A DNA stretch of 56,190 nucleotides from assembly GCF_010672525.1 (NCBI RefSeq), contig NZ_JAAHGH010000019.1, forward strand, positions 50,304-106,493, in the 5' to 3' direction. The notes under the pieces are model-generated. The model saw only the letters and a program-made list of their open reading frames with translations. It had not been told where the DNA came from and did not search any database. Positions 50,419 through 52,956 of the stretch are shown here, one piece after another. Positions within the stretch are counted from its first letter, which is position 1. The number at the start of each line of letters is the position of its first letter. The translations under genes and the position numbers were made by a program. The DNA is from Okeania sp. SIO2B3 (GTDB lineage: Bacteria; Cyanobacteriota; Cyanobacteriia; Cyanobacteriales; Microcoleaceae).

Positions 50419-51660
50419 CTAGGTAGTGTACTCAGCGTTAATTTTCACATAATCATAACTCAGGTCACATCCCCAAGCTTTCCCACTACCAACACCATCC
50501 CCAACTTTGACAGAAATTAACACAGTATCATCCTTGAGATATTTCCCTGCTGCTCTCTGCTTCAAATACTCGCTAGCAGCAGCTCGGTCAAAATCTAAAG
50601 GTTGACCATTTTCCATCATCAAAAAGTCTCCCAACTTTATCTGTAACTGCTCCTGCTCAAACTTCACTCCAGCGCGACCAGCAGCTCCGGCAATTCTTCC
50701 CCAGTTCGGGTCGCGACCAAAAATAGCTGATTTTACAAGAGAAGAACCTGCAATAGTCTTAGCAATTTTATTCGCAGATGCTTCATCAGACGTTCCTGTA
50801 ACCTGAACTTCCATCAGACAAGTTGCACCCTCTCCATCACGAGCTACCGCTTTTGCCAAATAGACACAAACCTCTGTCAACATAGCCTCCAACTTTTCCG
50901 CCTCCGCCCCCACATTAGTAATAGCAGAGGTGCGAGATTGACCATTTGTCAAGGCAATTACTGTATCATTGGTACTCGTATCCCCATCAACAGTAATCTG
51001 ATTAAAACTACGATTAACTGCTCTAGTTAACATCTCTTGCCATAATGGAGGAGAAACCGCTGCATCACAAGTTACAAACGACAACATTGTTGCCATATTC
51101 GGATGGATCATACCAGAACCTTTGGCAATACCACCAATACGCACCGGGCGATCGCCCATTTGAGTTTCCAGAGCAATTGACTTTGTAACTAAATCTGTAG
51201 TAACAATAGCTTTTGCTGCTGCTTCTCCCCCTTCGGTAGAAACTGTAGAGACTAACTCGGGAATTGCTGCTTTGAGAGCATCCATTTTAATTCGTTTGCC
51301 AATAACTCCAGTAGAAGCTAGTAAAATTGACTCTGGAGAAATATTGAGCGCTAAACCCAATGCTTCCGCACTTTCCACAACATCCTGCCAACCTAAACTT
51401 CCAGTACCAGCATTTGCTTGTCCAGAATTACACAAAATTGCCCTAGCACTTGGTTTAGCTTCTAGCTGTTGCCGACAGTAGTCCACACAAGCAGCTCGTA
51501 CTTGACTTGTCGTGAAGACTCCAGCTGCGATCGAGTCTACATCTGACAAAATCAAGGCCAAGTCTGGTGCTCCGGAGGGTTTTAACCCCGCAGTAATTCC
51601 TGTTGCTCGATATCCTTTGGGAGCTGTTACCCCACCATCGATCATTTGCCAGTCTGACAT
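50419..51660 (-). CDS. argJ: Bifunctional ornithine acetyltransferase / N-acetylglutamate synthase ArgJ
   Basis: A 413-aa protein of the normal ArgJ length. It moves the acetyl group from N-acetylornithine to glutamate in the cyclic arginine pathway. The autocatalytic cleavage site is visible in GMIHPNMATMLSF, with Thr191 as the nucleophile after cleavage. Other marks are LCNSGQANAGTG, LLASTGVIGKRI, NQITVDGDTSTNDT, DGEGATCLMEV and FGRDPNWGRI(A)GAAGRAG. It is monocistronic. Confidence 0.97.
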   Translation of the reverse strand: MSDWQMIDGGVTAPKGYRATGITAGLKPSGAPDLALILSDVDSIAAGVFTTSQVRAACVDYCRQQLEAKPSARAILCNSGQANAGTGSLGWQDVVESAEALGLALNISPESILLASTGVIGKRIKMDALKAAIPELVSTVSTEGGEAAAKAIVTTDLVTKSIALETQMGDRPVRIGGIAKGSGMIHPNMATMLSFVTCDAAVSPPLWQEMLTRAVNRSFNQITVDGDTSTNDTVIALTNGQSRTSAITNVGAEAEKLEAMLTEVCVYLAKAVARDGEGATCLMEVQVTGTSDEASANKIAKTIAGSSLVKSAIFGRDPNWGRIAGAAGRAGVKFEQEQLQIKLGDFLMMENGQPLDFDRAAASEYLKQRAAGKYLKDDTVLISVKVGDGVGSGKAWGCDLSYDYVKINAEYTT

Positions 51661-52063: not shown

Positions 52064-52121
52064 ATAAAAAAATCAGTCGCAACTTCCTTTGATGGGTATC
52101 TCAGATAGGGAAGCTGCGACT
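52064..52121 (-). terminator. Rho-independent terminator of the gifA operon
   Basis: On the minus strand AGTCGCAGCTTCCC pairs with GGAAGTTGCGACT across an 18-20 base loop and is followed by GATTTTTTTATC. It lies about 40 bp after the stop codon of the last gifA gene. Confidence 0.75.
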
Positions 52122-52161
52122 CTTGAGTCAAAAACATTATTCAGTTATTCAGAAAATATTC

Positions 52162-52356
52162 CTAACTCATGGAAGCATGACTACGGTCATAAGTAGTGAC
52201 AAAACTAGGATGTGGTTTTCCTTGAATATTTCCCCAGTAATTATCTGCTTCTACACCCACTTCTGTTGCGGTGCGGTTCAGCATCGACTGTTGACGATTT
52301 TTAATTAGGTTGTGATGACGCATCATTAAAGCACGAGCTTGATGTTCTACATACAT
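52162..52356 (-). CDS. gifA: Glutamine synthetase inactivating factor IF7 homologue (copy 1)
   Basis: A 64-aa basic protein (MYVEHQARALMMRHHNLIKN...). It matches my recollection of cyanobacterial IF7: ARALMMRHH, KNRQQSML and a C-terminal QGKP.SSF..YDRS-like stretch (here QGKPHPSFVTTYDRSHASMS). Arginines fall at positions 8, 21 and 28, the three residues reported to contact glutamine synthetase in IF7. IF7 is intrinsically unfolded and inactivates GS type I by binding when nitrogen is plentiful. It is the last gene of a three-gene operon. Its amino-acid sequence is identical to copy 2. An AGGAG ribosome site precedes the ATG. Confidence 0.88.
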   Translation of the reverse strand: MYVEHQARALMMRHHNLIKNRQQSMLNRTATEVGVEADNYWGNIQGKPHPSFVTTYDRSHASMS

Positions 52357-52394
52357 ATTTTTAATTCTCCTATTGCTGACTTTTGATTTTCACT

Positions 52395-52589
52395 CTAACT
52401 CATGGAAGCATGACTACGGTCATAAGTAGTAACAAAACTAGGATGTGGTTTTCCTTGAATATTTCCCCAGTAATTATCTGCTTCTACACCCACTTCTGTT
52501 GCGGTGCGGTTCAGCATCGACTGTTGACGATTTTTAATTAGGTTGTGATGACGCATCATTAAAGCACGAGCTTGATGTTCTACATACAT
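52395..52589 (-). CDS. gifA: Glutamine synthetase inactivating factor IF7 homologue (copy 2)
   Basis: 64 aa, the same protein as copy 1. The two genes, including the ribosome site (tttttaattctcct on the plus strand), differ by a single synonymous base that I can find (gtgac/gtaac), with a period of 233 bp. This indicates a very recent tandem duplication or gene conversion. It lies 38 bp upstream of copy 1, so co-transcription is expected and GS inhibitor dosage would rise. Confidence 0.88.
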   Translation of the reverse strand: MYVEHQARALMMRHHNLIKNRQQSMLNRTATEVGVEADNYWGNIQGKPHPSFVTTYDRSHASMS

Positions 52590-52666
52590 ATTTTTAATTC
52601 TCCTGTTTCTGTTTAATTAACTGTTGTTTGTTAAAGATTAATGGAGGTGGCAAGAAAGAAAATAAA

Positions 52667-52861
52667 TTAGCTCATCGAAGCATGACCACGCTCATAATTT
52701 TTCCTAAAGCTAGGCTGTACTTTTCCTTGAATATGGCTCCAATAGTTACTATTTTCTAAGCCCACTTCTACAGCTACTCTGTTTAGCATTGACTGTTGAC
52801 GATTTTTTACCAGATGGTGATGACGTACCATTAAAGAGCGTGCTTGAGGTTCAGTAAACAT
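52667..52861 (-). CDS. gifA: Glutamine synthetase inactivating factor IF7 homologue (copy 3, divergent)
   Basis: 64 aa, MFTEPQARSLMVRHHHLVKN..., with the same arginine positions (8, 21, 28), KNRQQSMLNR and QGKVQPSF..NYERGHASMS. It differs from copies 1 and 2 at roughly a third of positions, so it is an older paralogue. It is the first gene of the operon, 77 bp before copy 2. A GTA-N8-TAC site lies upstream. Retention of two diverged types suggests distinct affinity or timing, which is inference. Confidence 0.87.
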   Translation of the reverse strand: MFTEPQARSLMVRHHHLVKNRQQSMLNRVAVEVGLENSNYWSHIQGKVQPSFRKNYERGHASMS

Positions 52862-52942
52862 CTTTAGATTTTCTCCCTTGATTATTTAACTCATGTTTGG
52901 GAAGCTTTTTTCCCTTACATTTTTATATTAACTAAAAATTCT

Positions 52943-52956
52943 GTAACTGTTGCTAC
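52943..52956 (-). promoter_or_regulatory. NtcA-type site upstream of the gifA operon
   Basis: A perfect GTA-N8-TAC palindrome 82 bp before the first gifA ATG, with a TATAAAA box about 15 bp downstream (minus strand; plus 52921-52927). The spacing is shorter than in NtcA-activated promoters, which suits repression; gif genes are known NtcA-repressed genes. The motif alone is common by chance in 56 kb, so the support comes from the context. Confidence 0.5.

Follow-up and report, generated by a model that had tools for sequence, protein, structure and literature searches.

Why should a marine filamentous cyanobacterium carry three genes for one small inhibitor of glutamine synthetase (GS) side by side, and what would the extra copies do? 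The question arises from a 56,190-nucleotide stretch of DNA from Okeania sp. SIO2B3, analysed here as a whole and referred to as the window. An earlier note, made from the letters alone, had described in it a self-contained operon of three tandem IF7-type GS inhibitors and had taken the triplication to be exceptional. The reading that we favour, with a probability of about 0.82, is a tandem gifA array with one NtcA-repressed promoter and two IF7 subtypes, in which the extra copies would raise the dose of IF7. The array is real, and it is a mostly ordinary yet informative example of its kind. Its features are collected in Table 1.

Table 1. Features of the gifA array and its downstream neighbour in the window, followed by examples of short gif genes in the loci of relatives (locus:positions).
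Feature	Position	Strand	Evidence or remark
NtcA-type site GTAGCAACAGTTAC	52943..52956	-	exact GTA-N8-TAC; 81 nt before first ATG (52861)
predicted -10 box TAATAT	52925..52930	-	12 nt after NtcA-type site; inferred, start site not mapped
gifA copy B (promoter-proximal, diverged IF7A, 64 aa)	52667..52861	-	NF052599 112.5 bits; B clade 99/95
gifA copy A1 (IF7A, 64 aa)	52395..52589	-	NF052599 118.8 bits; A clade 98/95
gifA copy A2 (IF7A, 64 aa; protein identical to A1)	52162..52356	-	NF052599 118.8 bits
hairpin and T-run, predicted intrinsic terminator of array	52066..52121	-	-22.2 kcal/mol, then TTTTTTT
argJ (413 aa), next gene downstream	50419..51660	-	TIGR00120 ArgJ 538.9 bits, cut-off 298
mini-IF7 examples	L044:8257-8394; L080:325-447; L100:8250-8831; L122:6211-7066

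The three predicted proteins were compared with NF052599, the curated NCBIfam equivalog model for 'glutamine synthetase inactivation factor IF7A', which has a cut-off of 70 bits. This was the profile check that had been proposed for them, and all three score well above the cut-off, with matches that span model positions 1-66 of 66. By this curated model all three open reading frames are gifA genes encoding IF7-type GS inactivating factors, so the original family call was right. It is also clear that, as first described, copies A1 and A2 encode identical proteins and differ in DNA by a single base over 210 bp (52162-52371 versus 52395-52604, a spacing of 233 bp), and that the third protein, B, has diverged from them, being 67% identical to A1/A2. 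The arginines at positions 8, 21 and 28, which we take to be the GS-binding residues of IF7, are found in all three proteins and are invariant among 22 aligned sequences, including two from the window. Three conserved arginines in IF7 are required for it to bind GS (PMC6316151), and binding and inactivation of type I GS is the function that we propose for A1, A2 and B. A Pfam search found no family for two of the three proteins; the match of the third lay below the cut-off (15 bits against 29.7) and was taken as chance. A search of solved structures gave nothing convincing, the best match (E 0.064, to a transcription factor chain) again being taken as chance.

The GTA-N8-TAC site that had been noticed upstream of the unit is exact. 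Of 80 loci scanned over the 300 nt that precede the first gif gene, 76 contain the same exact motif (79 loci of relatives plus the window; 75 before and 76 after the start of L057 was corrected), against a mean of 3.6 and a maximum of 10 loci in 200 order-1 Markov simulations. Since the 79 were drawn from the best-scoring 80 of 198 relatives they lean toward the window's own lineage; L119 repeats L040, several of L005-L033 repeat loci of the 79, and L037 enters the count because inserted DNA there happens to contain such motifs, its true site lying farther upstream. The four loci with no such motif in the scanned 300 nt are L041, L093, L094 and L097; in L041 a site precedes a degenerate B copy, beyond the range of the scan. 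The sequence TAN3T is placed exactly 12 nt 3' of the site in 47 of the 80 loci and 10-13 nt 3' of it in 64. If TAATAT is the -10 box, we estimate that the NtcA-type site would cover the -35 region, with its centre at around -31; the repressor site of Anabaena gifA is centred at -28.5 (PMC6316151). A scan for the sigma-70 consensus listed no promoter at the predicted place. In 69 of the 80 loci AGAA directly follows TAC, giving a conserved motif, GTAN8TACAGAA, that is longer than GTA-N8-TAC.

A small hairpin, GGGAAAAAAGCTTCCC on the coding strand (window 52899-52914), lies in what is predicted to be the 5' leader of the unit; L034 has it too, and L035 has it with a change of one base. It is possibly a site of small-RNA or translation control. 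An Rfam search of the window gave no match; in Synechocystis, the small RNA NsiR4 targets gifA (PMC6316151).

Within the array the genes are separated by gaps of 77 and 38 bp, neither of which contains GT-N10-AC, and a GGGAG or AGGAG ribosome-binding sequence lies ahead of each ATG. The strong downstream terminator that had been reported is borne out by a stable hairpin followed by a run of T. A similar stem (GTCGC..AACTT type) with a T-run is found after gif in seven of the eight Okeania-type loci L034-L041, the exception being L041. Terminators were searched for in 17 of the 79 loci as well as in the window, and among these 17 no terminator of the array's hairpin type was found in L043 and L077. 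A simple consensus terminator scan omits the hairpin in the window; the scan accepts only loops of 3-8. Since the gaps are short and without GT-N10-AC, and a terminator-like hairpin stands behind the last gene, the three gifA genes are likely to be carried on a single transcript. The description of the operon as self-contained is thus correct in that the site and the terminator flank the genes, but argJ, on the same strand, lies 501 nt beyond the last gif gene. The three genes probably make up a single unit, repressed by NtcA, whose products shut off GS under plentiful nitrogen.

In the mechanism that we propose, the single NtcA-repressed promoter would give an mRNA on which B is followed by the two identical A copies, with a ribosome-binding sequence ahead of every gene. 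Under nitrogen limitation, NtcA positioned over the -35 region would hold the unit off; with ample ammonium NtcA would be released and IF7 would be made. Through the three conserved arginines the protein would then bind type I GS and bring ammonium assimilation to a halt. Having more copies would increase the amount of IF7, in a host in which IF17 was not detected and glnA is not beside gifA. The repression, the co-transcription, the binding of GS and the effect of dosage are all inferred from sequence.

How unusual is such an array? Counting matches at E <= 1e-22 as full-length IF7 copies, at least two are present in 23 of the 61 genomes of the host's family, and up to six; one of the 23, G008, includes a copy with an internal stop. 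At least three copies are present in 18 of the 61, a single match in 30 and none in eight. The four genus-mates of the host have 2, 3, 3 and 4 copies, and in G013 and in G018, genomes of one contig each, six IF7 matches stand in a row, one of those in G013 beginning at model position 5. In a draw from the whole class, 131 of 291 genomes had an IF7 match at the same threshold, IF17-like frames included; among the matches listed, G241 alone, besides the host genome, has two short-frame copies close together. Tandem gif arrays are therefore a habit of the host's family. Thus, while the earlier note had the gene family right, its claim of an exceptional triplication is contradicted by the two to six full-length copies in those 23 family genomes, and by the four potential gifA genes of Limnospira indica PCC 8005 (PMC8400943). 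Several IF genes seem to be more widespread than a single gifA (PMC11288750). PMC3610870 mentions gifA and Planktothrix, and our literature search found no report that combines gifA with Okeania.

The copies in these arrays are of two kinds. In a protein tree of 38 rows and 64 columns, of whose 31 inner branches 12 remain open, the promoter-proximal copies of seven loci (the window, four Okeania, Hydrocoleum and MO_207) form a B clade (99/95) and 20 downstream copies form an A clade (98/95). Because the B copies of the seven loci and the A copies fall into separate clades, the tree dates the A-B split before the split between Okeania, Hydrocoleum and MO_207; a gene of the Microcoleus type joins the B clade with weak support (85/83). 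The B sequences have a pooled dN/dS of 0.144 and the A sequences one of 0.135, with 0.25 for A against B, from pairs that are not independent, and on these ratios both A and B are under purifying selection. The triplication had been thought to reflect dosage or subtype control of GS; the subtype part is supported by the tree, with its two old paralogue clades, and this old split, as read from the tree, is a useful addition of the present analysis.

It may be, and we put this forward only tentatively, that A and B are subtypes that function differently, through GS affinity, stability or translation, beyond mere dosage. The two sets (20 A and 7 B sequences) have no overlap in residues at ten positions, which together with their separate supported clades and the location of B as the first gene in all seven loci with an intact B would be expected of such subtypes. 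Against this, A and B have the same three arginines, and with only 64 residues most forks of the tree are weak. Further, among nine loci examined L039 has only a remnant of B and L041 a degenerate copy, and in L037 inserted DNA cuts B off from its promoter; with B lost or degenerate in two of the nine and displaced in a third, it appears to be dispensable in some lineages.

The same decay could be expected if the arrays arose by neutral tandem duplication, with unequal crossing-over, a drifting copy number and extra copies of no physiological effect. The differing copy numbers of the four genus-mates agree with this, as do the partial copy in L036, the B remnant in L039 and, in L041, a frameshifted A copy alongside the degenerate B. 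So does the A pair of the window, whose 99.5% identity in DNA (next-closest among the loci compared, 97.9%) points to a recent, renewed multiplication of A by duplication or conversion. We nevertheless consider a neutral origin unlikely, as the A-B split appears older than that between Okeania, Hydrocoleum and MO_207, pooled dN/dS is near 0.14 in both clades, and three or more full copies recur in 18 of the 61 family genomes.

L041, with its degenerate B and frameshifted A copy, is a locus of a Trichodesmium MAG. In the genus g7, which contains the Hydrocoleum genome, five of the seven genomes (G010, G016, G025, G028 and G031) gave no IF7 match at E <= 1e-22, G016 having an IF7 fragment at 3.2e-11 and G031 being 81% complete; the other two, G021 and G034, have five and three copies. 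In part of the g7/Trichodesmium lineage gif seems to be decaying or lost.

For our preferred reading, that of a dosed inhibitor under one promoter, the rest of the host genome (10.0 Mb in 249 contigs, 99.85% complete) is of importance. A single full-length glnA (473 aa) is present, and a single nifH scores above cut-off. A search for further IF7 at E <= 1 gave one extra, weak match of 13.4 bits (E 0.85), and DUF4278, the N-terminal domain that precedes the IF7-like part of IF17, had no match in the host genome at E <= 0.001. The array proteins, of 64 aa and in a genome whose search gave no DUF4278, are thus not IF17 (gifB). The glnA gene is on contig C46 and the array on C101, so that the tail-to-tail glnA-gifA pair of the Nostocales type is not formed here. 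With no IF17 and no glnA-gifA pair found, and with three gifA genes in place, it is fair to suppose that the brake is strengthened by dose, and the array may plausibly act in this way in the host. The hypothesis is weakened by the array-bearing genomes G007, G009, G013 and G018, which keep IF17-like frames; on the same ground a role of the arrays as a simple replacement of IF17 was rejected. No match to DUF4278 was found in seven of the nine genomes of the A-type lineage (G000-G004, G011, G021, G034 and, judging by a copy pattern that fits L041, probably G008), with one 85-aa frame in G003 and frames of 108 and 88 aa in G008. As these nine form one lineage, the association between arrays and the absence of IF17 represents at best one event. 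One of them, G001, has B only as a remnant.

A GS-like fragment was also seen on host contig C184 (L114 1501-1752), matching PF00120 positions 253-334 with 57 bits, and it is possibly the remnant of a second GS-like gene. By eye, a gene near it presumably belongs with transposase-associated genes, which it resembles.

Elsewhere glnA can be found directly beside gifA. In family f25, presumably Nostocales, the two are tail-to-tail in six of the seven loci fetched (taken from seven of the 15 genomes of f25 that had a match). This arrangement is published for Nostocales, and it is speculated by the authors that strains with a single IF acquired the antisense as an extra layer (PMC11288750). The gifA of Nostoc (Anabaena) sp. 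PCC 7120 resembles the array in its IF7-type product and, as predicted for the host, has an NtcA site near the -10 box and a terminator behind the gene (PMC6316151, PMC11288750). It is, however, a single gene, tail-to-tail with glnA, from which read-through yields glnA antisense RNA, and it has a second NtcA site at -77.5 (PMC6316151, PMC11288750), whereas the host has three genes, glnA on another contig and argJ downstream. Another close system is that of Limnospira indica PCC 8005, whose four potential gifA genes have the consecutive tags _60802 to _60805; it differs in additionally having two potential gifB genes (PMC8400943). In G013 and G018 the diverged copy is the last of six, whereas in the host array it is the first. 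Like the host, Synechocystis sp. PCC 6803 encodes more than a single GS inactivating factor, and it has the NtcA control that is predicted for the host, but there the second factor is IF17, encoded by a separate gene with a glutamine riboswitch (PMC6316151); in the host the genome has no DUF4278 match and the window no Rfam match.

The gene that follows the array is often the same in relatives. Co-directional argJ lies downstream of gif in 37 of the 79 loci, within 1 kb in 34 of them and at a median gap of 326; of the 42 loci without this order, two have less than 1.5 kb of downstream sequence. The order is also seen in six of eight hand-picked loci of the host's family, one of which repeats L040. 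This conserved gif-argJ order is a further useful addition of the present analysis. It is mostly found in Microcoleaceae, plus four loci named otherwise (L077, L091, L092 and L112). Where PMC10937788 treats gifA and argJ it does so in terms of expression, not gene order, and PMC6058095 mentions both genes. Co-transcription of gif and argJ as the main path is disfavoured by the hairpin between them. A wider proposal, that the array is a dosage-plus-subtype solution for strong GS shut-off, evolved without IF17 and glnA antisense, from which read-through of the terminator feeds argJ, seems to us quite improbable; if it were true, the signal of plentiful nitrogen would turn GS off and arginine synthesis, and with it nitrogen storage, up.

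An assembly artefact, which A copies one base apart over 210 bp in a 249-contig draft might suggest, can be dismissed with near certainty, given that the same plan appears in other assemblies with different copy numbers and that six matches in a row are carried by each of G013 and G018, both assembled in one contig; there could still be more A copies than the assembly shows.

Small proteins that inhibit GS act as a major brake on cyanobacterial ammonium assimilation. Across the host's family the number of full-length gifA copies ranges naturally from 0 to 6, in genomes that do or do not have IF17-like genes, and this would allow a comparative test of whether the dose of inhibitor sets the speed and extent of GS shut-down. 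The old subtypes and the gif-argJ order are leads absent from the two model strains, each of which has one gifA.

Shorter relatives of these genes were also observed. Mini-IF7 genes of 41-52 aa lie beside a full gifA, 21 of them in the 79 loci, and L122 contains more such short genes. Their products retain the three arginines but not the C-terminal third, and many end in DRK. Three that were scanned against NF052599 matched at approximately positions 1-38, with 70.8, 66.2 and 64 bits, and the 46-aa set has a pooled dN/dS of 0.32.
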